A stretch of 40,123 nt of DNA. Source: a virus. The stretch's first letter is position 1, and each line of letters opens with the position of its first letter. The DNA is taken from positions 1 through 40,123 of the IMG/VR virus record IMGVR_UViG_3300005337_000033. One strand, 5' to 3'. A program made the translations under genes and the position numbers. Of the stretch, positions 3,651-27,479 are shown piece after piece. The notes beneath the pieces are model-generated. The model saw only the letters and a list, made by a program, of their open reading frames with translations. It was not told the DNA's origin and ran no database searches.

Positions 3651-6284
3651 ATGCCTCTCTTCGGGAAGCGGCGGGAGAAGCCCTCGCCCCACGTGATGAC
3701 CGCCGCCGGTCGGGTCGTGGACCTCCGCGACCGGGACACCGTAGCCACGCTCGCCATGACCCGGATGCCCTGGCAGTCCGTGGCCTGGAACTACCGCAAC
3801 TCGATCGGCGAGCTGGGGCAGGCCCTGCGGATGAAGGCCAACCTGCTGAGCAAGCTCGGCTGGACCGCCGCCTACCAGCCGCCCGGCGAGGACGAACCGA
3901 TCCTGCTGACCGGCAACCCGGACGAAGACAAGGACGAAGACGGCAAGCCGTATGTGTCGCCGCACGTCGCCCAGGCCGCGATCGAGTGCCTTCAGCAGCT
4001 CCCCTGGTCCCGCGGCTACGGCTTCACCGGGCGGATCTCCACCGGCTTCGACGTGCCGGGCGAGGTGTGGCTTCACGGCTTCCCGGGCGATGACGGCCAG
4101 GAGACGTGGGAGGTGCGCTCCACCTCCGAGGTCACCCCGAGCACTGGCGGCGGCCTGCTGGTCACCACTGTGCCGGGGAAGCCGCCGCGCGAGCTGGACC
4201 CCGACGAAGAGACGCTGATTCGGCTGTGGGTGCCGCACCCGGAGTGGGGTGACCTCTCCGACTCGCCGATCCGCACGCTGATGGATGTGTGCGAAGACGT
4301 GGTGCTGGCCGGCCGCGAGATCCGGGCGGCCGCGATGAGCCGGATCGCCTCGAACGGCATCCTCTTCATCCCCGAGGGCATGGCCCTGGTCAAGCCTGAT
4401 CAGCAGGTCGTCCGGCCGAACGAGAACGGGTTCGCAGCCGCCTTCACCGCGAGCATGACGGCACCGATCAACAACGAAGGCCACGTGTCCGCGGTCGTGC
4501 CCATCGTGATCTACGGCGACCCCGAGGACGGCCAGGCCATCCGCCACGTCACCCTGGACCGGGCCAGCGCCGATGACGTGATCGAGCGACAGAAGGCCAG
4601 TCTGGATCGGCTCGCCGACGGGATCGACCTGCCCCGCGAGGCGATGCGGGGCAGCATCGGCGAGGCGAACCACTGGAGCGCCTGGCTGATCGACGCCCAG
4701 ACGTTCGAGAACCACCTGGAGCCCGGCGCCCGCATGATCGCCGACTCCATCACCATGAGCTACATGAAACGGCGCCTCACCATGAGCGTCGCGGATGGCG
4801 GATGGGGCCTCTCCGTCGAAGAGGTCGACACGGTCCGCTGCTGGTTCGACGCCAGCACGATCACCCGCAACACCAACCGCTCCGCCGACGCGGATGCCGC
4901 GATGGACCGCGGTGCCATCAGCTACGACGCGTACCTGAAGGCGAAGGGCTTCGACCCGGCCGACAAGGCCGACGAAGAGGACATCCAGCGCCTGATCGCG
5001 GTCAAGTCCGCCGCTCCACAGGACGCGCTGGGCAAGCTCATGGAGGCGGTGGCAGGGATCAAGGCCGATCCCCAGCCGAAGCCCATGATCGTGCCTGGGC
5101 AGATCGTGCGCCCGGGCCAGCAGGCTCTCCCGCCTGGTGCGCCGGCCGACGCGGACCAGCCGCCGCCCGCACCGGGCCGTGGGCCGGGTCAGGGGACGCC
5201 CCCGGTGCCGACGGGCGCCCGGACGGCGGCTGGTGCCAGCGATTCGCAGGGCGTACTCGATTCAGTGCGGATCATCGATGGCCAGGTGCTGGCCGATATC
5301 GACCGCCAGTTGGTGGAGGCGATCCGGCACGCCGCGGAGGCGGAGCTGGCCACGGCCCTGCGCAAGGCCGGGAACAAGATCAAGGCCCAGGCCCAGGGCA
5401 AGGACCCCGAGCTGGCCGCCGCGCTCAAGGGCATGGAGCCCACGCTGGTGCCGTCGTTCCTCACGGCCAACGGCGGCGGCGAGCGGTTCATGGAGCTGGG
5501 CCTGACGGAGGAGGTGCTGCTGGCCGCCGCCTTCGCCTACCTTCAGGCGAAGTTCGCCAGCTGGACCGGTGCCGCGATCAAGGACGCCGTGCTGGCCGTG
5601 TCCGCGATGCTGGCCTTCCCACTGGTCACCACCCAGGCGCTGGCGAGCGCCATGGCGGAGCGCATCCCCGCCGCCTGGAAGCGGCTGGAGTCGAGCCTGC
5701 GGGCCCGCGCCATGTCCGCGCTCTACGGCCGGAAGCTGGACCTGCTGCCCGACGGCGAGGTGCCGGACACCATCATCCTGCCGGGAGACATCCGCGAGGC
5801 CCTGGCGGAGATCGGCGGACCGGTGAACGGCAACGGCCCCGGCGGGCTCGCGCTCGGCGGGGACATCCTGCGCGAGGTCGACCAGCGGGCGGTCTCGCTC
5901 GGTTTCAGCTGGCGGTACGGCGTGACCCCGCGGGCGCGCGCCTTCCATCCTCACCGCCAGCTGGCCGGCGAGCGGTTCGAGTCGTACACGGACGCCCGCC
6001 TGGTGCCGACGCCGGAGAATGCCTGGCTGGGCCCGCACATGCACCCCGGCGACCACCCCGGGTGCATGTGCGACGCCGTACCGGCCTGGGCCGTGGGTGA
6101 GGCTGACGCGGCCGCTCACGTGGTCGCCGACACCGAGACCCCGGGGATGCGGAACGAACGCCTCCTGGCCCAGCTGGACGACGCGGCGGGCCGGGTGGGC
6201 ACGCACAGCCAGCGCACCCGGGCGGAGCGGGATCGTATGGTCGAGGTCCAGCGGGCATGGATCGAGCGGAGGGCGCCGCAATGA
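3651..6284 (+). CDS. Portal protein with fused MuF-like C-terminus
   Basis: An 877-residue protein from ATG 3651. The portal forms the dodecameric DNA channel at one head vertex and docks terminase and connector. Residues 1 to about 470 look like a portal body, with WNYRNSIGELGQALRMKANL near the start and the actinophage-portal-like segment GSIGEANHWSAWLIDAQTFE near residue 335. A Pro-rich linker follows around 475-530. The C-terminal third ends with a MuF-like part: AFHPHRQLAGERF, then PGDHPGCMCDAVPAW near residues 800-813, the HPxC(x)C pattern of SPP1 gp7/Mu gpF-type minor head proteins. The size exceeds a typical portal (about 450-550 residues), in line with a portal-MuF fusion. The stop overlaps the next start. 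Confidence 0.9.
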   Translation: MPLFGKRREKPSPHVMTAAGRVVDLRDRDTVATLAMTRMPWQSVAWNYRNSIGELGQALRMKANLLSKLGWTAAYQPPGEDEPILLTGNPDEDKDEDGKPYVSPHVAQAAIECLQQLPWSRGYGFTGRISTGFDVPGEVWLHGFPGDDGQETWEVRSTSEVTPSTGGGLLVTTVPGKPPRELDPDEETLIRLWVPHPEWGDLSDSPIRTLMDVCEDVVLAGREIRAAAMSRIASNGILFIPEGMALVKPDQQVVRPNENGFAAAFTASMTAPINNEGHVSAVVPIVIYGDPEDGQAIRHVTLDRASADDVIERQKASLDRLADGIDLPREAMRGSIGEANHWSAWLIDAQTFENHLEPGARMIADSITMSYMKRRLTMSVADGGWGLSVEEVDTVRCWFDASTITRNTNRSADADAAMDRGAISYDAYLKAKGFDPADKADEEDIQRLIAVKSAAPQDALGKLMEAVAGIKADPQPKPMIVPGQIVRPGQQALPPGAPADADQPPPAPGRGPGQGTPPVPTGARTAAGASDSQGVLDSVRIIDGQVLADIDRQLVEAIRHAAEAELATALRKAGNKIKAQAQGKDPELAAALKGMEPTLVPSFLTANGGGERFMELGLTEEVLLAAAFAYLQAKFASWTGAAIKDAVLAVSAMLAFPLVTTQALASAMAERIPAAWKRLESSLRARAMSALYGRKLDLLPDGEVPDTIILPGDIREALAEIGGPVNGNGPGGLALGGDILREVDQRAVSLGFSWRYGVTPRARAFHPHRQLAGERFESYTDARLVPTPENAWLGPHMHPGDHPGCMCDAVPAWAVGEADAAAHVVADTETPGMRNERLLAQLDDAAGRVGTHSQRTRAERDRMVEVQRAWIERRAPQ

Positions 6285-6748
6285 GCTGGAAGAAGACGCT
6301 GGCCCACCTCAACCGGGGCGGGTCGTGGGTGACGCGGCCGCGCGAAGTGGACCTCACGCCAGCCAGCGGGCCGATCGCGTACACGCCAGACGAAGATGCC
6401 CAGGACGGCAAGGTCCCGGGCACGGCGGGCCACGACCTGGTGGCGGCCCGTGAGCTGCTGGAGCGAGAGCGCGCCTTCGCCCCGCACTGTGATCAGCGCA
6501 TCCTCCACCCGCCGGGCACCTGCTGGGCGTGCGACCTGTACCCGGACTGGCAGAAGCTCCGCGAGCTATGGGGCATCGCCTTCACTGGTCAGCAGCCGAA
6601 TGACGAAGTCCTGCGTGTCGACCAGCGTGAGGAGCCGGTGGCGGTCCGGAAGATGCTGCCTTGTCCGGCCGACTTCAACCGCCCGCCGGACAGTCCCAGT
6701 GATCATCGCCAGTGGGGCCCGAATCAGGCTCAGGGGGAGCGCCCGTGA
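6281..6748 (+). CDS. Hypothetical head-region protein
   Basis: The product has 155 residues from ATG 6281, in ATGA overlap with the portal stop; an in-frame ATG at 6257 is less likely. A helical middle part (GHDLVAARELLERERAF) is followed by a Cys/His cluster (HCDQRILHPPGTCWACDLYP, near residues 68-87) that could bind zinc. It sits between portal and protease, so a head assembly or minor structural role is plausible but unproven. The end overlaps the next GTG. Confidence 0.6.
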   Translation: MSWKKTLAHLNRGGSWVTRPREVDLTPASGPIAYTPDEDAQDGKVPGTAGHDLVAARELLERERAFAPHCDQRILHPPGTCWACDLYPDWQKLRELWGIAFTGQQPNDEVLRVDQREEPVAVRKMLPCPADFNRPPDSPSDHRQWGPNQAQGERP

Positions 6749-9120
6749 CCGGACCGATGACGCACCACATGGCTCGCTCGGACATGATCGTGCCCGCCGA
6801 CGTGGCCTTGTCGGTCGCACTGGCGGCGGCTGGCGCGGAGATCCAGACCGGCGGCATGATCGCGCTGATCCCCGACAACCCCCAGGCGTTCACCGTGTCC
6901 GGCGGCGACCCGGCCGCCCAGATGCACATGACGCTGTGCTTCCTCGGGGACGTGTCCGAGCTGGACGACGCCACCCGCGAGGAGCTGGTGAAGCGCGTCC
7001 AGGTGCTCGCCGCGGACAACGGCCCGGTGGAGATGCGGGTTCAGGGCGTCGGGATCTGGAACCGGGACGGCGGCGACACCGGCGACCGTAAGCCGTCTAC
7101 CAACACGCTGCTCCAGCCGACGGACCAGGCGCAGAACCTCCGCGACTACGCGGACCAGATCGGCCGGGACGCACTCGGCGCGCGGTACCCCGAGCAGTTC
7201 CGGCCGTGGGCGCCGCACATCTGCGCAGGCTTCGACCTGCCGCCGGAGACCTTGCCGATGCACGACGGCGTGGTGCGCTTCTCGAAGGTGCGGCTCGCGC
7301 TCGCGGGCGAAGATCAGGACTTCGCACTGGTGGGCCCGTCGCGGCTGGATGAGCCGACCGCGGGCAACCGGTACTCGAAGATCGGAGTAGTGGAGATGAC
7401 GGACACGAAGACGGACGTGCGTCCCAAGGCTCCGGCCGACGTGGACGCCAGCCAGCAGCCCGGGGAGATCAAGCTGGGCAAGGTGCGCGAGGACGGCACC
7501 GTGCCTGCGTACTTCCCCTGCCTCGCCGTGGAGGGCATGGAGACCGCGGACGGGCGGTACATCGAACCCGGCGCGCTCCAGGTGCGCACCCCGCCGCTGT
7601 CGGTCTTCGCCCAGTTCACCAACACCGGCCAGGGCGGGCACTCGGGCGCGGAGATCTCGGGCAACCTCACGGAGGCGTGGCGGATCCCCGGCCCCGAGTT
7701 CATCAGCCGCCAGACCGGTGAGCCGCTGCCCGAAGGGACCTTCGTGTGGCAGGGGCGCGGCGAGGTCGACACGAACACCACCGGCGGCAAGCTGTTCTGG
7801 AAGCGGTACCTGCGCGGCAACTCGGTGGACCTGTCCGAAGTGGATGCGTACGACGATATCCAGTTCGACGAAGACCAGGAGCACCACCGGGTGGTGGTGA
7901 CGAAGGGCTTCATCAACGCCACCACGCTGTGCGCCATCCCCGCCTTCCCGGACGCCTACGGCGAGATCGAGGGCGAGGAGGGCGGCTACAGCGCGGCCAT
8001 GGCAGCCCGGGAGCTGGAGCTGGACGCGAAGTACCCGAAGACGATCGAGGGCCTCCAGGCGTTCCTCCGGGACCGCGGCATCCAGCCGGTGGTGGCCAGC
8101 TTCTCGATCCCCGAGCTGGGCGACGCCTGCTCGCCGTGCCTCGCGTCGGCTGGCGAAGAGGAGCTGGGCACGCTCCCGCCCGCGCTCCGCAAGAAGGCGG
8201 AGGCGAAGAAGGCGGCCGCGAAGGACGGCGACACCACCGAGCCGGACGACGACGAAGACGACGGCAAGCCCGCGTTCCTGAAGAAGAAGATCAGCAAGGG
8301 CCGCACCGCGTCGGCCGCCGCGCTCCCGCCGATCGAGTACTTCACGGACCCCGGCTTCTCCGAGCCCACCCCGCTCACGATCGACGGGGACCGGATCTTC
8401 GGGCACATCGCCACCTGGGGCACGTGCCACATCGGCATCTCCAAGCGGTGCACGCCGCCGCCGCGCTCGAAGAGCGACTACGCCTATTTCAACGTCGGGG
8501 CGAAGCGTGTCCAGGACGGCGATGCGGTGCGCACCGTGGGCGTCGGCCACCTCACCATGAACACCGGCCACGCCTCGCTGAACGCCAGCCTGGCGGAGAC
8601 GCTGGCCCACTACGACAACACCGGCACATGCGCGGCCACCGTGGCAGCGGGCGAGGACCGGCACGGGATCTGGATCAACGGTCTGGTGGAGCCCGAGCTG
8701 TCCGAGCGGGACCGCGAGCGCCTCGCCGCCGCCCCGCCGTCGGGCGACTGGCGGCCGAAGGGGGGCGCGCTGGAGCTGTGCGCCGTCCTCGCGGTGAACG
8801 TGCCGGGCTACCCGGTGCCGCGAGCCCGCGTCGCCGCTGCTGGCGTGGGCGAGGAGCCCGAGGTGCTGGCGCTGGTGGCGGCCGGGGCGACGAAGCCGGC
8901 CAGCGCCTTCGGTCCGGGCGGGATCGACCTGGACGACTTCGCCGACCGGGTGAGCGCCCGCGTGCTGGTCGCGCTCGAAAAGGCGGTGCCCGAGGTGTTC
9001 GCCGCGGACCCCGGGCTGGCTGGCCGCCAGCAGGACGCGGCACTGGCGCTCCGCCAGCTGGAGGCCGTGGAGGCGATGCGCCCTTTTCCGGGAGCCCCGA
9101 CGGGGCCGACGAAGAGCTGA
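6745..9120 (+). CDS. 2H phosphoesterase-capsid maturation protease fusion
   Basis: The product has 791 residues from GTG 6745 (GTGA overlap, CAGGGGGAG upstream). Residues about 35-215 resemble the 2H phosphoesterase (LigT/2'-5' RNA ligase) fold. The first motif HMTLCFLGD has H61 and T63. The second is PHICAGF with H158, where Cys160 replaces the usual Thr/Ser. Residues about 240-425 resemble actinophage capsid maturation proteases (AVEGMETADGRYIEPGAL; GGHSGAEISGNL; TLCAIPAFPDAYGE), which cleave the capsid protein delta domain during prohead maturation. A Lys/Asp-rich linker leads to a Cys-containing C-terminal module (GDRIFGHIATWGTCH) also seen in such proteases. The stop lies 30 bases after a slippery site (9081), so a longer form is predicted. 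Protease assignment is fairly sure; 2H activity is inferred. Confidence 0.85.
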   Translation: MTGPMTHHMARSDMIVPADVALSVALAAAGAEIQTGGMIALIPDNPQAFTVSGGDPAAQMHMTLCFLGDVSELDDATREELVKRVQVLAADNGPVEMRVQGVGIWNRDGGDTGDRKPSTNTLLQPTDQAQNLRDYADQIGRDALGARYPEQFRPWAPHICAGFDLPPETLPMHDGVVRFSKVRLALAGEDQDFALVGPSRLDEPTAGNRYSKIGVVEMTDTKTDVRPKAPADVDASQQPGEIKLGKVREDGTVPAYFPCLAVEGMETADGRYIEPGALQVRTPPLSVFAQFTNTGQGGHSGAEISGNLTEAWRIPGPEFISRQTGEPLPEGTFVWQGRGEVDTNTTGGKLFWKRYLRGNSVDLSEVDAYDDIQFDEDQEHHRVVVTKGFINATTLCAIPAFPDAYGEIEGEEGGYSAAMAARELELDAKYPKTIEGLQAFLRDRGIQPVVASFSIPELGDACSPCLASAGEEELGTLPPALRKKAEAKKAAAKDGDTTEPDDDEDDGKPAFLKKKISKGRTASAAALPPIEYFTDPGFSEPTPLTIDGDRIFGHIATWGTCHIGISKRCTPPPRSKSDYAYFNVGAKRVQDGDAVRTVGVGHLTMNTGHASLNASLAETLAHYDNTGTCAATVAAGEDRHGIWINGLVEPELSERDRERLAAAPPSGDWRPKGGALELCAVLAVNVPGYPVPRARVAAAGVGEEPEVLALVAAGATKPASAFGPGGIDLDDFADRVSARVLVALEKAVPEVFAADPGLAGRQQDAALALRQLEAVEAMRPFPGAPTGPTKS
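9081..9106 (+). promoter_or_regulatory. Predicted -1 ribosomal frameshift signal
   Basis: The protease frame reads cgC-CCT-TTT, so bases 9081-9087 form a CCCTTTT heptamer of the X-XXY-YYZ type in the correct phase. Six bases (9088-9093) separate it from a GC hairpin, with GCCCC at 9094-9098 pairing GGGGC at 9102-9106 around a 3-base loop. This is the textbook arrangement of a -1 slippery site with a stimulator. TTT is an unusual codon in this GC-rich genome, where Phe is usually TTC. Slippage moves ribosomes into the frame ending at 9515. Confidence 0.6.
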
Positions 9121-9515
9121 CCGCTGACGAAGCGGTGGCCGTCGACTGGGTCACCGCTTGGGTACTCCGCGAGCAGGCCGCCAGCCTGACCGACGCGGAG
9201 CGCGAGGAGGTGGAGCGCTGGCTGGCTGGCGATGCGCTGGTGATGCTCTCCGCCGTCGCGGCCGATGAGTTCAACTGGGTGGACAAGGTCGGCGGCCTGC
9301 CGAAGTTCATCAAGCGGATCAAGAACCACCTGGTGCGCAAGGGCATGGACACCTCCCGGGCGATCGCGACCGCGGTGAACGTGGTCAAGAAGATGTGCGC
9401 CAGCGGGGACACGAACTGGCCCGGCAAGCAGAACGTCAACGCGGGCAGCCGCGCCGAAGCGTGCGGGGCGGTGGCCGACTGGGAGAGGAAGAAGGCCCAG
9501 TCCCACGCCGACTGA
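9087..9515 (+). CDS. -1 frameshift extension of capsid protease
   Basis: Reading in the -1 frame from TCC 9087 gives 142 residues that would be joined to the first 781 residues of the protease, a 923-residue product. The segment starts with an acidic linker (SGSPDGADEELTADE). It then has a helical part and a basic module, FNWVDKVGGLPKFIKRIKNH, followed by SRAIATAVNVVKKMCASGD and NVNAGSRAEACGAV. From memory, similar modules occur at the ends of actinophage head proteins. No ATG lies near its start. The first in-frame GTG (9135) follows the protease stop by 14 bases and lacks a good ribosome-binding site, which argues for frameshifting over independent initiation. A GTG-started separate gene remains the alternative. 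Confidence 0.65.
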   Translation, partial: SGSPDGADEELTADEAVAVDWVTAWVLREQAASLTDAEREEVERWLAGDALVMLSAVAADEFNWVDKVGGLPKFIKRIKNHLVRKGMDTSRAIATAVNVVKKMCASGDTNWPGKQNVNAGSRAEACGAVADWERKKAQSHAD

Positions 9516-9941: not shown

Positions 9942-10274
9942 GTGAACTTGACCCTGCTCGGGGGCTTGGGCTCGCTGTTTTTCATGATCGCGTCCTTCGT
10001 GGTCGCCACGATCTCGCTGCGCGCCTCGCGTAAGTCGAAGGAGGCCGTGGAGTCCCGCGAGACGGCCGAACTCGGTATCGTCATGCTCCGCTGGTCGAAC
10101 CAGGTCCGGCGTCTGGCCGCGTCGAACGGATGGGATCAGGACCCGGCCTGGCCGGCCATCCCGGTCGAAGCTACTCCCGAGTACCTGCGCGGGAAGGCGT
10201 CGGCCACCAACAACGACGACCTCACGAAGTTCATCGAGACCGTCCAGAAGTTCACCAAGGGTGACGCAAAATGA
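9942..10274 (+). CDS. N-terminally anchored membrane protein
   Basis: GTG 9942 follows a GAAAGGAGC site. The 110-residue product has one N-terminal span (LLGGLGSLFFMIASFVVATI). A basic helix (LRASRKSKEAVESRETAELG) and a soluble, mostly helical domain follow. This N-in or N-out single-pass layout resembles small phage membrane proteins of unknown role. The stop overlaps the next ATG (ATGA). Confidence 0.6.
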   Translation: MNLTLLGGLGSLFFMIASFVVATISLRASRKSKEAVESRETAELGIVMLRWSNQVRRLAASNGWDQDPAWPAIPVEATPEYLRGKASATNNDDLTKFIETVQKFTKGDAK

Positions 10275-11092
10275 CCGTGACGGAGCTGCCCAGCACGCCC
10301 ACGCCGACCAGGAAGCTGCGCGTGTGGCTGCCCTCCACTCGTGCGCTGGTCGCGGTCGCTGTGCTGGCCCTGCTTGGGCTGCTCGCCGTCTTCGTGATCG
10401 CACTGGTCACCGGCCAGGACGCGAAGGACAAGGCCCAGACCGTGGCCCAGGACACCGCGCCGGCCGTGCTCACCTTGGACGTGCTGTGCAAGCGGAACGA
10501 CCAGCTGGGCGCGGACCTGCGGAGTGCCGGGGCGTGCGGGGACAAGATCGACAAGGCGAAGTCCGCGGTGGACGGCCAGCCCCAGCCGCCCGTGGCCGCC
10601 GCCGGGCTGTCGAAGGATGACGTGGTGGCGATCGTGGCCGGCCAGCTCGCCGGCAAGACGGTGACCGTGGACCAGGTCATGGCCATGGTCACCCAGGTCT
10701 ACAACGCGAACCGGCCGAAGGACGCTCCGCCGCCGACCGGGGACCAGGTGCTGGCCGCCGTTCAGCAGGTGTGCGGCTCCACGAAGTGCCAGGGCCCGCA
10801 GGGCGAGAAGGGCGCCGACGCTCCACCGGTCACCGATGAGCAGCTCTACGCGCAGGTGGCCGCGTACTGCGCGGGCCCCAGTGCGCCATGCAAGGGCTCG
10901 CCCGGGGAGAAGGGCGACACCGGCGCACAGGGCGTCTCGATCGTCGCCCAGACCTTCGCGCGCAACGACGCGGGCGAGTGCCGGAGCTACATCATCTTGA
11001 GCAGCGACACCAGCCGCCGGATCGACTCCGGCCCGGCGGGCGACGCGGCGTGTCCGGTGCCGGAGCCGCCGAACACCACGCCGGGCGGGTAG
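10271..11092 (+). CDS. Membrane-anchored collagen-like protein
   Basis: The product has 273 residues from ATG 10271. A Thr/Pro-rich N-terminus leads to a single membrane span around residues 24-46 (ALVAVAVLALLGLLAVFVIA), then a long extracytoplasmic-type domain with six or more cysteines. Two short collagen-like Gly-X-Y runs are present, GPQGEKGADA and GSPGEKGDTGAQG. The repeated sentence QVLAAVQQVCG / QLYAQVAAYCAG flanks them, so the domain looks internally duplicated. Collagen-like modules are frequent in phage structural proteins. Here the membrane anchor suggests a host-envelope protein instead. It is the last gene before a strong bidirectional terminator. Confidence 0.7.
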   Translation: MTVTELPSTPTPTRKLRVWLPSTRALVAVAVLALLGLLAVFVIALVTGQDAKDKAQTVAQDTAPAVLTLDVLCKRNDQLGADLRSAGACGDKIDKAKSAVDGQPQPPVAAAGLSKDDVVAIVAGQLAGKTVTVDQVMAMVTQVYNANRPKDAPPPTGDQVLAAVQQVCGSTKCQGPQGEKGADAPPVTDEQLYAQVAAYCAGPSAPCKGSPGEKGDTGAQGVSIVAQTFARNDAGECRSYIILSSDTSRRIDSGPAGDAACPVPEPPNTTPGG

Positions 11093-17971: not shown

Positions 17972-19711
17972 GTGGACCCGAAGCGCATTGCGGAGATCCT
18001 GGGGGATCTCGCCAACGCCAGCGAAGCGGACATCCGCGCGGCCTTGGCCGCCCTGGGTGCGCAGGGCAAGGAGCTGGCCCTGAACCCGCCGACCGCCGAG
18101 AACGTGGCGGCGGTCGAAGAGGTCGTGAAGAACGCGAAGACGCTGTCCGCCGCGCTCACCGAGAAGGCGGAGCTGGCAGGCAAGCAGACCGCCGCGCTCG
18201 CGGAGCTGGACGGCGTGCACGACCCGGCTCGCGACCACGTGGAGCAGCCCACGGCGGAGAACACCAAGGATGTGCCCGCCCCGGCGGACGCGGGTGCGAC
18301 CACCGACCCAGGCGCCGACGTGGAGGGCGACGACGGGGACAAGGGCGACACCGCGAAGAAGGCGGCGCCGGCCAAGAAGGCGCGCACCGCGTCCGGCCTG
18401 GGCAAGATCGGCAAGGACGGGTCCCCCGAGCAGGACGCGAAGGCGGGCGCCGTCCAGGCGACCACCACCGTGGCGGCCGGCGTGCCGGGCTTCTCGCCGG
18501 GCCAGCAGCTGACCGAGGACGCGTTCGTGAAGGCGTTCGCGGCGGTCGCTCGCTCGAAGGGCAACGGCTCCGCGAACATCGCGCACGTGGAGTTCGCCTA
18601 CCCGGCAGAGCGCACCCTGGGCGACGACTCGGCGGCGAACCAGGCGCGCATCGCGGCGGCCACCGACGAGCAGGCCATCACCGCGGCGGGCGGGCTCTGC
18701 CTGCCGCCCGAGGTCCGCTACGACATCAACGTCCTGGGCGTGACGGACCGGCCTGTCCACCAGGCGCTGAACACGTTCCGGACGGAGCGCGGCATCCTCC
18801 AGTACCGGGCGCCGTTCGACGCGCTGGCGATGACCTCGGGCCTGGGCATGTGGACCCAGACGGACGACCAGGCGATCGTGATCCCGCCGGCCGACCCGGA
18901 CACGAACGTGTACAAGTCCTGCTACGTGGTGAGCTGCCCCGGCGTGCTCGAAGCCTCGATCTACTCCACGTACATGTGCCTGGAGTTCCCGAACATGACC
19001 GCCCGGTTCGACACCGAGTGGGTCCGGGCGACCACCCAGGCCGCGCAGATCGCGTGGAGCCGGTACACGGAGAACAACCTGCTCTCCCGGCTGTTCTCCG
19101 CCTCCAAGATCCTCAAGGGCATGGGCCCCGCGGTGTCCGCGGTCGCCGACCTGCTGGCCACCTACGACCGGGTGATCGCCTACTACCGGAACCGGCACCG
19201 CCTGAACTCGCGGGTGTCGCTCCGGACGATCATGCCCCAGTGGGTGATCAACCTCCTGATGACCGACCTCGCGCGGCGCTTCACCATGGCGTCCCCGGGC
19301 GAGCTGTTCGGCATCGCCCAGTCCGAGCTGGAGCGCTGGTTCTCCACGCGCGGCGTGAACGTCACCTGGCACCTGGACGGCCTGGCCGGCGCCACGGTGT
19401 CCGGCGTGACCGTCGCCCAGCAGTTCTACGACGACAGTGTCGCGGGCGCGGTGGTCCCGCAGTACCCGGCGAACGTGGACAGCCTGCTGTTCGTGGAGGG
19501 TGACTGGCTGCTGCTCGACGGCGGCACGCTGGACCTGGGCCTGGTGCGGGACTCCGAGCTGAACAAGCGGAACCGCTACCAGACGTTCATCGAGACCTTC
19601 GAGGGCGTGGCCTTCACGGGCAAGGAGTCCCTGCGCGTGGTCCTGCCGCTCCGTCCGGACGGCTCGGCGGCGGGCACGAAGGCTGTCCCGGCCGGCGGCT
19701 GGGACGCCTGA
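17972..19711 (+). CDS. Major capsid protein with N-terminal delta/scaffold region
   Basis: The product has 579 residues from GTG 17972 after GGAAGGGG. Residues 1 to about 180 are helical and charged (KRIAEILGDLANASEADIRA) and then low-complexity Ala/Lys/Asp. This resembles the delta domain of HK97-fold capsid proteins that guides assembly and is removed by the maturation protease. The remainder looks like a capsid core: AFVKAFAAVARSKGNG, LPPEVRYDINVLGVTDRPVH, NRYQTFIETFEGVAFTGKES. Family knowledge predicts cleavage near the end of the Ala/Lys-rich part by the 6745 protease; the exact site is not visible. A hairpin follows the stop. Confidence 0.85.
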   Translation: MDPKRIAEILGDLANASEADIRAALAALGAQGKELALNPPTAENVAAVEEVVKNAKTLSAALTEKAELAGKQTAALAELDGVHDPARDHVEQPTAENTKDVPAPADAGATTDPGADVEGDDGDKGDTAKKAAPAKKARTASGLGKIGKDGSPEQDAKAGAVQATTTVAAGVPGFSPGQQLTEDAFVKAFAAVARSKGNGSANIAHVEFAYPAERTLGDDSAANQARIAAATDEQAITAAGGLCLPPEVRYDINVLGVTDRPVHQALNTFRTERGILQYRAPFDALAMTSGLGMWTQTDDQAIVIPPADPDTNVYKSCYVVSCPGVLEASIYSTYMCLEFPNMTARFDTEWVRATTQAAQIAWSRYTENNLLSRLFSASKILKGMGPAVSAVADLLATYDRVIAYYRNRHRLNSRVSLRTIMPQWVINLLMTDLARRFTMASPGELFGIAQSELERWFSTRGVNVTWHLDGLAGATVSGVTVAQQFYDDSVAGAVVPQYPANVDSLLFVEGDWLLLDGGTLDLGLVRDSELNKRNRYQTFIETFEGVAFTGKESLRVVLPLRPDGSAAGTKAVPAGGWDA

Positions 19712-24320: not shown

Positions 24321-27300
24321 GTGCTGATCGGTGAGGCGTCGATTCGGCTGGACGCGATCGCCGATGACCTGAAGCGGACGATCGACCGGGACATCAACGA
24401 AGCGCTCGCCGGGGTCAAGATCGACAGCGATCCCCTGGTCAAGATGACCCAGGACCTGAACAAGGCGGAGCTGGAGCTGGTCAAGGCCGAAGACCAGCTT
24501 CAGGCCGCCCACCGGGGAACCCAGGAGACCGAAGCCAAGCTGATCGACCTCCGGCGCGACGGCAAGGCGTCGGCGAACGAGATCACCGCGGCGGAGCGGG
24601 CTCTGACCCGGGCTCGCGCGGAAGAGGCCGTGGCTGGCGACCGGGTCACCGTGGCTACCCAGAAGCTGGCTTCCGCCCACGGCGCGCTCACGAAGGCCCA
24701 GAGGGACGGCGAGACCCAGCAGAAGTCCTGGATCAGGTCCATGCTCGGGTCCTCGAACGTGATCGACAACGTAGTGTCAAGGATCAACATCTTCAGCCGG
24801 CGGAACAAGGAAGCCGGGGACGAGAGCACCCGAACCGGCTCGAAGATTCGCGACACCGGCCGTGAGGCGAGTGGCCTGGGCCGCATCCTGGACACGGTCC
24901 TGGGCGGGGCGCTGAAGTCGCAAACCGGTCAGCTCGGGGCTCTGGGCTCCGTCGGCGAAGGCGTCTTCTCCACGCTCACCTCCAAGATGGTCTTGATGCC
25001 CTCCGCGCTGGCGCCCCTGCTCGGGGTGATCGGCGGGCTGATCATCGCCTTCCCGGCGCTGGCGACCGTCGGCGTGGCCGCGCTCGGGGCAATCGCCCTG
25101 GGGATGGACGGGATCAAGCGGGCGTTCAAGCCGCTGGCTGACGACATCGATGCCCTGAAGTCCAAGGTGTCGGCCAGCTTCGAGTCCGCGCTGGCGCCTG
25201 CCGTGGCGAAGATGCCCGCGCTACTCGGTGCGGCGACCACGGGGCTCCAGGCCATGGCGACCGCATTGGGCGGCATGGTGACCCGGCTCACCGACCTACT
25301 CACCAGTAGTGAGAACCTGGCGAAGATCCGGGACCTGTTCATCCAGACGGCCTTCTTCATCAAGGCCATGGGCCCTGGAATCCAGCAGTTCACCCAGGGC
25401 TTTCTCAACCTGGCCTCCGCCGTCGCGCCCCAGCTCGAAGGGCTTGGGCGGGCCATCGGTGGCTTGCTCGGCTCCGTCGGCCAGGCGTTCGATCGGCTTT
25501 CCCAGCTCGGGCTGGTGAAGCCCGCGATCGATGGCCTGATCCAGGTCTTCGGCGCCCTGGGCAACCTGATCGGGCCGATCCTGGAGATCTTCGGCCGGCT
25601 CGCGGCCACCCTTCAGGGCCCTCTGGCCACCGTGATCAACGCGATCGCGGCCGGCCTTCAGGCCGCGATGCCTGGTATCCAGGCGTTCGCGGACGGGATC
25701 GGCAAGGCGCTCGTGGCGCTCGCGCCCGCCCTCCAGGCCGTCCTGCCGCTGGTGGGTCAGGTGGCTGGCCTGATTGGCGGCGTGCTCGGGACCGCGATCT
25801 CCGTGCTGGCACCGCCGCTCACGAAGTTGATCAACGGCCTGTCCGCGGGGCTCGCCCCAATCCTCCCTGCGATCTCGAAGGCGTTCGAGGATCTGGGGGC
25901 CGCGCTCGCCCCGGTGCTCGACCAGCTGGCCGGCGTGCTTGTGGACGCCCTGAACCAGCTGCTCCCGCTGCTGCCCACCCTGCTGGGTGCGATCACCTCG
26001 CTGGCGCCCGTGTTCCTCCAGCTGGTCCAGGCCGTCCTGCCGCTGATCCCCCCGCTGGTACAGCTGGTCGCCACGATCCTCCCGCCGCTGATCCGGCTCT
26101 GGCTGCTGATCGAGAAGCCGTCGCTGGAGTTCGCGGTCATCTTGCTGAACAAGGTCGTCCCGGCGCTGGTCTCCTTCCTCGGGGTCGTCCAGAGCGTGGT
26201 CACCGGCGTCGTCAACTTCTTCACCGATTTCGATACGAATGTGTCGAAGATCTGGTCCAATATCGTCAATTTCTTCAAGGGAATTGGCGACTCAATTGGC
26301 TCATTCTTTAGCGGAATCGGAAACAAGATCGTCGAATGGTTCCAGGCTGGCGTGGACTTCCTTGCCGGGCTGCCCGGCAAGGTGGGCAACTGGCTGGCGT
26401 CGCTCCCGGGGATCGTGGGCAACGCCCTGCTGGATGCCGGAAGGGCCATGCTGAACGGCGCGATCCAGGGCGTGGAGTGGGTGCTGGCGGAGTTCATCGC
26501 CCTGCCGTTCCAGATCGTCTACGGGCTCGCCGCGCTCGGGAAGATGCTGTGGGACGTGGCCGTGGCCGCGTTCAACGCCTTCATCAACGGGATCGTCACC
26601 ACGGCGCAAGGCGTGTGGACCTTCATCCAGTCCGTGCCGGGCCGCATCCGCGATGGGCTGTCTTCGCTGGCCCAGACCCTGCGCGACACCGCGTCAAACG
26701 CCTGGCACGGCTTCTTGGACACCATGGTCTCGGTGGCACAGGGCGTGTGGTCCTTCGTCCAGTCAATCCCTGGCCGAGTCCGAAGTGGACTGTCGTCACT
26801 GGCCCAGACTCTGCGCGACGCGGCGGTGAACGGGTTCAACAACTTCATCACCGGCGCCCAGAACACGGCCAGCGGGATCTGGTCGTTCGTGTCCTCCATC
26901 CCCGGGCGGATCTGGTCCGCGCTCGGCGACGTGGGTGGGATGCTGTTCAACGCCGGAAAGGCGATCATCCAGGGACTGATCAACGGCATCAAGAACGCGG
27001 CTGGCGCGGTCGCGGGCGCCATCGGCGACGTGCTGGCGAAGGCCCGTCGGCTGCTCCCCTTCTCGCCCGCGAAGGAGGGGCCATTCTCCGGACGCGGCTG
27101 GGTGCTCTACTCCGGCATGTCGATCCCGCTCGCGATCGCGGACGGGATCCGGCGCATGGCCGGCTCCGCGATCAGCGAAGCGGCGGCTCTGGCGGCTGCT
27201 GTCCAGGCGGAGCTGGGCATCACGCCGACGGTCGATCTCGGCGGCACCTCGGGCCGGGCGCCGTCGGTGCCGGACCTCTCCGGGTCCAGCACCCAGCAGG

Positions 27301-27479
27301 CGATGGCGGAGGCCCAGCTGGTCGCGCTCCAGGGTCTCGTGGACCAGTTGGCCGCCCAGGGCAAGACACTCCCGGACGACCTGGTGGCCGCACTGGAGCA
27401 GCTCCGTGTCGTAGTCTCCGCCAACGAAGTGGCCAGCGGCGTGAAGTCGGTCGACCAGCAGAACGGCCGGAGGCGGTAA
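24321..27479 (+). CDS. Tape measure protein
   Basis: The product has 1052 residues from GTG 24321. It has an N-terminal coiled coil (LVKMTQDLNKAELELVKAED; TAAERALTRARAEEAVAGDR), long hydrophobic helical stretches in the middle, and Trp/Phe repeats toward the C-terminus. Tape measure proteins set tail length and enter the cell with the DNA. At about 0.15 nm per residue, this length predicts a tail near 150-160 nm. Three 44-residue repeats occur near 26610-27000. A patch at about 26220-26340 is visibly richer in A and T. There is no obvious peptidase or lysozyme domain. Confidence 0.9.
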   Translation: MLIGEASIRLDAIADDLKRTIDRDINEALAGVKIDSDPLVKMTQDLNKAELELVKAEDQLQAAHRGTQETEAKLIDLRRDGKASANEITAAERALTRARAEEAVAGDRVTVATQKLASAHGALTKAQRDGETQQKSWIRSMLGSSNVIDNVVSRINIFSRRNKEAGDESTRTGSKIRDTGREASGLGRILDTVLGGALKSQTGQLGALGSVGEGVFSTLTSKMVLMPSALAPLLGVIGGLIIAFPALATVGVAALGAIALGMDGIKRAFKPLADDIDALKSKVSASFESALAPAVAKMPALLGAATTGLQAMATALGGMVTRLTDLLTSSENLAKIRDLFIQTAFFIKAMGPGIQQFTQGFLNLASAVAPQLEGLGRAIGGLLGSVGQAFDRLSQLGLVKPAIDGLIQVFGALGNLIGPILEIFGRLAATLQGPLATVINAIAAGLQAAMPGIQAFADGIGKALVALAPALQAVLPLVGQVAGLIGGVLGTAISVLAPPLTKLINGLSAGLAPILPAISKAFEDLGAALAPVLDQLAGVLVDALNQLLPLLPTLLGAITSLAPVFLQLVQAVLPLIPPLVQLVATILPPLIRLWLLIEKPSLEFAVILLNKVVPALVSFLGVVQSVVTGVVNFFTDFDTNVSKIWSNIVNFFKGIGDSIGSFFSGIGNKIVEWFQAGVDFLAGLPGKVGNWLASLPGIVGNALLDAGRAMLNGAIQGVEWVLAEFIALPFQIVYGLAALGKMLWDVAVAAFNAFINGIVTTAQGVWTFIQSVPGRIRDGLSSLAQTLRDTASNAWHGFLDTMVSVAQGVWSFVQSIPGRVRSGLSSLAQTLRDAAVNGFNNFITGAQNTASGIWSFVSSIPGRIWSALGDVGGMLFNAGKAIIQGLINGIKNAAGAVAGAIGDVLAKARRLLPFSPAKEGPFSGRGWVLYSGMSIPLAIADGIRRMAGSAISEAAALAAAVQAELGITPTVDLGGTSGRAPSVPDLSGSSTQQAMAEAQLVALQGLVDQLAAQGKTLPDDLVAALEQLRVVVSANEVASGVKSVDQQNGRRR
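26610..27000 (+). repeat. Three 44-residue repeats in tape measure
   Basis: GVWTFIQSVPGRIRDGLSSL (from 26610), GVWSFVQSIPGRVRSGLSSL (from 26742) and GIWSFVSSIPGRIWSALGDV (from 26874) recur with a period of exactly 132 bases. The third copy diverges after its first half. Such periodic units in tape measure proteins match the stacking of tube rings. Confidence 0.8.

Follow-up and report, generated by a model that had tools for sequence, protein, structure and literature searches.

The IMG/VR virus record IMGVR_UViG_3300005337_000033 (40,123 bases, analyzed over its full length and called the window below) contains a gene in which a predicted 2H (LigT-like) phosphoesterase domain is joined to a head maturation protease domain (PR) and to a third conserved head domain (D3). 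We put the probability at roughly 0.5 that the 2H part is a working, metal-independent phosphoesterase that is carried as part of the head maturation protease polyprotein, is delivered with the virion and cuts RNA or an oligonucleotide. The 2H domain is likely to be an enzyme. The gene and its parts are given below. Residue numbers follow the frame that opens with the GTG at 6712; subtracting 11 gives the numbers for the frame that opens with the GTG at 6745.

6745..9120, + strand: gene for the 2H phosphoesterase, head maturation protease and D3 (open frame; PHROG matches of head maturation protease/portal type)
6838..7341, + strand: 2H (LigT-like) phosphoesterase domain, residues 43-210 (Pfam LigT_PEase, structure model, VIA-align)
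6925..6933, + strand: motif 1, H72-M-T74 (H and T invariant in 50 sequences and in 94/94 copies)
7216..7224, + strand: motif 2, H169-I-C171, an HxC variant (His in 94/94 copies; third position Cys in 55, Thr in 39)
7342..7473, + strand: flexible linker between 2H domain and protease, residues 211-254, candidate processing region (predicted local distance difference test score, pLDDT, <50 over most of 210-254)
7474..8001, + strand: PR, residues 255-430, with invariant H310 and S371 (VIA-align; invariance)
8332..8835, + strand: D3, residues 541-708, with invariant H620 and S677 (profile E=7e-81; at least 559 relatives)

The N-terminal domain has a predicted 2H fold

The N-terminal part of the protein was matched by the Pfam family LigT_PEase (PF02834) with E=1.3e-7 and 32.2 bits, above the Pfam cut-off of 23.3, and the structure 1iuh was also found by sequence with a profile of 26 relatives (E=1.6e-5). 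An AlphaFold2 model of the domain, based on a 26-sequence alignment, reached a pLDDT of 92.9 and a predicted template modelling score (pTM) of 0.87, and had the two-lobed 2H fold, with VIA-align Z scores of 14-16 to LigT and cyclic phosphodiesterase (CPDase) structures. The individual values were 15.6 for 1iuh (root-mean-square deviation, rmsd, 2.9 over 156 residues), 15.1 for drCPDase, 14.4 for E. coli LigT and 14.2 for human Usb1. Lower scores were obtained for 6hiw_DQ, a 2H-fold protein of the trypanosomatid mitoribosome (Z 11.8), for the phosphodiesterase (PDE) of rotavirus VP3 (4ye2, Z about 11.6-11.7) and for Acb1 (Z 9.9, rmsd 3.6, 127 residues). Foldseek, too, matched the model to LigT, CPDase and Usb1 structures.

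A preliminary description, made from the letters of the window, had placed a 2H domain at the N-terminus and had proposed structure prediction against LigT and Acb1; both the Pfam match and the model bear it out. On the evidence of the model, the N-terminal domain is a genuine 2H/LigT-type domain and is nearer in fold to LigT/CPDase and Usb1 than to Acb1. With bacterial LigT (ThpR) it shares the fold, the two His motifs and a LigT_PEase score above cut-off; it differs in its HxC rather than HxT/S motif 2, in its place in a head polyprotein, and in a score of 22.5 bits for the NCBIfam LigT/ThpR equivalog TIGR02258, below the cut-off of 65.7. The 2',5'-phosphodiesterase at the C-terminus of rotavirus VP3, a virion-associated protein in which the 2H domain is fused to a capping enzyme, is likewise a 2H domain within a larger protein, but from an RNA virus and with about 10-12% identity to the window domain. 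A search of a defence-system library gave no match.

The catalytic residues are conserved, and motif 2 exists in two forms

The residues H61, T63, H158 and C160 named in the preliminary description are exact when counted from GTG 6745, and correspond to H72, T74, H169 and C171 here. H72, T74 and H169, and thus both catalytic His residues, are invariant across 50 aligned relatives. The third residue of motif 2 is usually Thr or Ser in the 2H superfamily; neither is present in the window, and we treat C171 as a variant within the superfamily. To read the domain as possibly inactive because of this Cys went too far. The four catalytic positions were His, Thr, His and Cys/Thr in all 94 non-redundant copies from all sets, with HxC in 55 and HxT in 39, and three T/C changes suffice on a quick tree. 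Since HxC occurs in 55 of the 94 copies and the other three positions never vary, the Cys is a common natural variant rather than a sign of decay. A structural remnant is also unlikely, because the catalytic positions are kept while the identity of distant 2H copies to the window drops to 24-35%. A decayed 2H domain, considered because of the Cys, was therefore ruled out by the conservation of the catalytic positions.

The set of 94 copies was obtained by dropping 13 duplicate loci, accepting 2H matches with E up to 1e-8 and removing copies more than 90% alike (111 reduced to 94). It mixes loci selected through D3 with loci fetched by a pattern, namely those from the IMG/VR scan with the 2H alignment and those from bacterial genomes. 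Because this pattern contains PH[IV][TC], the conservation of motif 2, although not that of motif 1, holds by construction in the pattern-fetched loci. In the D3-selected sample, motif 1 was H-T in 33/33 readable copies (L135 lacks motif 1 through truncation) and motif 2 was H-[T/C] in 34/34.

The ratio of nonsynonymous to synonymous substitution rates (dN/dS) relative to five close relatives was 0.24-0.35 for the 2H domain, 0.17-0.44 for PR and 0.25-0.49 for D3. Judged by these ratios, the 2H domain is under purifying selection, with dN/dS in the range of PR and D3.

The 2H domain is joined to a predicted assemblin-fold head protease

The preliminary description had named a capsid protease as the fusion partner, and the full-length model agrees with this assignment. 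Residues 255-409 align with T4 gp21 (5jbl, VIA-align Z 8.9), and neighbouring ranges within 255-461 align with herpesvirus proteases (Z 6.4-6.8). H310 and S371, the putative catalytic His and Ser nucleophile, are invariant across the 50 sequences. Peptidase_S77 gave sub-threshold matches in 6 of the 50 relatives, and both of those with listed positions lie inside PR. The gene is placed between the portal and major capsid genes, as expected of a head maturation protease. According to the model, the fusion partner of the 2H domain is a true head protease of assemblin fold. The fold of residues 255-409 and the invariant His and Ser are shared with T4 gp21 and herpesvirus assemblin; to our knowledge, these proteases have no 2H domain, and D3 has no assigned counterpart in them.

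D3 may be a second assemblin-like domain. A comparison of the PR and D3 profiles gave a probability below 1% and did not support this reading. A search with the D3 profile turned up no credible relative of solved structure, and D3 was not represented among the 50 structure matches listed for the full-length model. By eye, the order of His, strand, strand, helix and Ser-strand in D3, which includes the invariant H620 and S677, resembles that of PR.

The fusion recurs in phages of actinobacteria

Queried with the whole protein, tblastn found matches in 1,054 of 50,697 phage records, and 377 of the same 50,697 matched the 2H part alone; the organism names listed among the matches pointed to actinobacterial hosts throughout. 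A scan of IMG/VR with the 2H alignment gave 158 relatives, 80 of which were kept, and among bacterial genomes a scan retrieved 14 loci, which are all actinobacterial and include 13 with a 2H fusion. We tabulated 88 open reading frames (ORFs), comprising loci L002-L092 minus four duplicates, plus the window (duplicates dropped: L001, L014-L017); L062 and L064, which are copies of L003-type phages, are still included. The 2H domain was fused to at least one head domain in 66 of these ORFs and unfused in 22. Half of the unfused copies (11/22) directly precede a separate PR-D3 gene; among the other half are solo 2H genes of the Mycobacterium phages Phrappuccino and Pleione, which lie a few genes downstream of the portal gene.

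Selection by D3 only yielded a fused 2H domain in 34 of 80 loci; none was seen in the other 46, seven of which are cut at the 5' contig end. Since these loci are the best 80 of 559, the sample is weighted to close kin, and it contains near-copies (e.g. L094-L100 and L106; L133 and L136). In the D3-selected loci the 2H domain stands ahead of PR, is flanked by MuF on one side and PR or SM on the other, or separates PR from D3. In phages of the Tiamoceli type it comes after D3. The occurrence of several domain orders suggests that the link of the 2H domain to the head polyprotein outlives rearrangement. The quick tree of 2H copies, which has many open forks, shows roughly 13 changes between domain-order classes. 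To judge from these sequence surveys, the arrangement of head protease and 2H domain is not unique to the window but recurs widely in phages of actinobacteria.

Some architectures deserve separate mention. In L110, L113, L114, L116, L118 and L163, where the 2H domain lies between PR and D3, it is split between the motifs by a long insert that is acidic or rich in proline, with both motifs kept. The head proteins of L133, L136, L146 and L154 have the order MuF-2H-SM-D3 without a recognizable PR. L162 and L166 have about 580-600 residues before D3 that lack a Pfam match, and these might hold other cargo. A Pfam search for other cargo in nine long head proteins, eight of them without a 2H call, found nothing beyond Phage_Mu_F, a DoxX-like match below threshold and, in the remaining protein, 2H.

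Relation to described head-protein fusions

In the available part of their paper, Iyer et al. (2017, PMC5512222) describe fusions of 2H domains with the head proteins MuF or portal, regard head-fused domains as likely delivered from the virion, and propose that the 2H domains act as ribonucleases or break down 2'-5' oligoadenylate or other counter-invader nucleotides. The window holds what this proposal envisages, an effector domain fused to a head protein. Because 2H fusions to MuF or portal were already described, and their delivery proposed, in 2017 (PMC5512222), the window fusion appears to be a further case of a known kind. To call the arrangement unusual, as the preliminary description did, was too strong, given that the fusion recurs widely and that virion delivery is part of the earlier proposal. 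The window and the systems of PMC5512222 have in common a phage head protein that carries a 2H phosphoesterase. They differ in that the direct partner in the window is a gp21-like protease together with D3, MuF could not be demonstrated there, and motif 2 is HxC. The available text of that paper names MuF and portal as partners, not the protease.

Comparable fusions exist for other effectors. Nudix domains are fused to MuF, to portal and to a capsid-processing serine peptidase according to the available part of PMC9503650; they too are small nucleotide-acting enzyme domains on the same head proteins, including the protease, but belong to another enzyme superfamily. The available part of PMC7302621 reports Microbacterium phages in which a VIP2 toxin is joined to a MuF-like protein. 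Relative to the accessible portions of these papers, the new elements are the partnership with a gp21-like protease and D3, the fluid domain order, the split pair that is often adjacent, the retained active site and the frequency of HxC.

A virion-delivered phosphoesterase as the favoured reading

The fusion to the protease, and in many relatives also to MuF, would carry the 2H domain into the prohead during assembly, and processing in the flexible linker could then release it. Any copies retained in the head would be injected into the next host together with the DNA and would be active ahead of all phage gene expression. In the new host the domain would use 2',3'-cyclic-phosphate chemistry to cut an RNA, the end of an RNA or an oligonucleotide signal. 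Uptake into the prohead is something that we infer with fair confidence from the fusion to protease or MuF. Packaging, release by the protease, injection and counter-defence are steps that we infer as well. The interpretation in the preliminary description is partly supported, and its sequence-level observation is confirmed. As substrate, RNA or an RNA end seems preferable to a cyclic oligonucleotide signal by roughly three to two, because the modelled fold is nearest to RNA 2',3'-cyclic phosphodiesterases (LigT/CPDase) and Usb1.

Several points weigh against a virion-delivered enzyme. The mature head often no longer contains its protease, so that fusion to a protease alone is no proof of retention. 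The 46 of 80 D3-selected proteins without a 2H domain imply that head assembly in general can do without it. The 11 unfused 2H copies that do not precede a PR-D3 gene had no such gene in the fetched stretch (L019 is cut by a contig end). The scores for a MuF domain in the C-terminal extension of the window portal were too weak to claim one, and in the literature accessible without subscription we found no experiment on fusions of this type, whether by virion proteomics, activity assay or injection.

More tentatively, the head protease polyprotein might serve as a delivery chassis, in which an exchangeable, catalytically intact 2H cassette enters the prohead via the protease, and not via MuF only, is freed, and is injected as a first-strike enzyme, with the HxC subclass now the commoner one. 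If virion delivery is true, several hundred sequenced phages, many of them isolated on laboratory strains of Gordonia, Mycobacterium, Microbacterium and Streptomyces, would have an enzyme that cuts nucleotides encoded in, or close to, a head gene, and the 2017 proposal of virion-delivered 2H enzymes would become directly testable with existing isolates. The enzyme would so far be hidden by the labels RNA ligase, portal or protease that such proteins have mostly been given. Phage records annotate the same protein as RNA ligase, head/capsid maturation protease, portal, MuF-like fusion, phosphodiesterase or hypothetical.

Alternative explanations

The domain might instead cleave cyclic oligonucleotides of the cyclic-oligonucleotide-based antiphage signalling system (CBASS) or of type III CRISPR, as Acb1 does, whether it is delivered with the virion or made late. 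We consider this unlikely. Acb1, a separate small protein, is phage-borne like the window domain and shares its 2H fold, but it is outranked structurally by LigT, CPDase, Usb1 and VP3 PDE. The Pfam family Acb1 (PF23474) did not match the window protein at E up to 1; three of 50 relatives gave weak matches that stayed under the cut-off (best E=6.4e-5). According to the available part of PMC9117128, Acb1 has the tetrad HxT/HxT, as opposed to HxT/HxC in the window. SMODS, a CBASS-type nucleotidyltransferase domain, scored over its cut-off in 3 of the 14 actinobacterial genomes that hold such loci and was absent or below cut-off in the other 11. Its presence in the three indicates only that this class of substrate can occur in such hosts. 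The breakdown of defence nucleotides is named as an option in the available text of PMC5512222. Because Acb1 ranks lower structurally and Pfam found no Acb1 match in the window protein, an anti-CBASS role is an option that we do not favour. The preliminary description over-read the domain as Acb1-like; membership in the Acb1 family was set aside on the grounds of Pfam, structural rank and the difference in motif 2.

A role in RNA repair, in which the domain would open 2',3'-cyclic phosphates on transfer RNA cut by host anticodon nucleases so that a ligase could reseal it, with the head fusion being incidental, seems less probable still. It would fit with RNA 2',3'-cyclic phosphodiesterases as the nearest structures and with the frequent annotation of the gene as RNA ligase. 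The gene is located in the late head operon, however, and neither RtcB (0/47) nor RNA_ligase (PF09414, 0/47) was found in 47 related records, with the controls matched. These records, some of which are fragments, comprise 34 with and 13 without the 2H fusion, and a partner RNA ligase of these two families was accordingly rejected. A search for RNA_lig_T4_1 was given no weight because no control matched. The available part of Iyer et al. (PMC5512222) states that such 2H versions were never seen with RNA ligases.

The idea of a non-enzymatic assembly module, with the 2H fold kept for binding in the prohead, e.g. to protease, portal or nucleic acid, can draw on the 2H part belonging to the head polyprotein and travelling with it, and on the 6hiw_DQ match as a sign that 2H folds can serve in structures, but it is improbable in view of catalytic positions kept in 94/94 copies despite the fall in identity, the many head proteins of the same type without 2H, and the existence of separate 2H genes.

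Gene start and late-operon setting

No stop codon interrupts the frame between GTG 6712 and the stop at 9118-9120 (802 residues); counted from GTG 6745, the protein has 791 residues. GTG 6745 is the better start, because it overlaps the stop codon of the preceding ORF (6257-6748) as GTGA and has a purine-rich stretch, cagggggag, just upstream. The gene is part of the late operon on a siphophage-like contig, with the order portal, small ORF, 2H-protease-D3 gene, SM2, major head protein and tail. The neighbouring features are as follows.

3651..6284, + strand: portal protein gene, with about 300 additional C-terminal residues (phrog_776, E=2e-82, residues 12-579)
6257-6748: small ORF between the portal and 2H-protease-D3 genes
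9135..9515, + strand: SM2 small protein gene, in another frame, directly downstream (profile E=1e-56)
17972-19711: major head protein gene (phrog_777)
24321-27479: tape measure protein gene

The SM2 profile was built from the relatives L010 and L013, in which the SM2 sequence is an in-frame C-terminal fusion to the D3 polyprotein. Upstream of the portal gene, the minus strand carries a predicted tRNA-Glu (CTC) at 2588-2670. The ORF at 10271-11092 (+ strand), which lies between the genes for the head protease and the major head protein, encodes short Gly-x-y (collagen-like) stretches, e.g. GPQGEKGADAPP.

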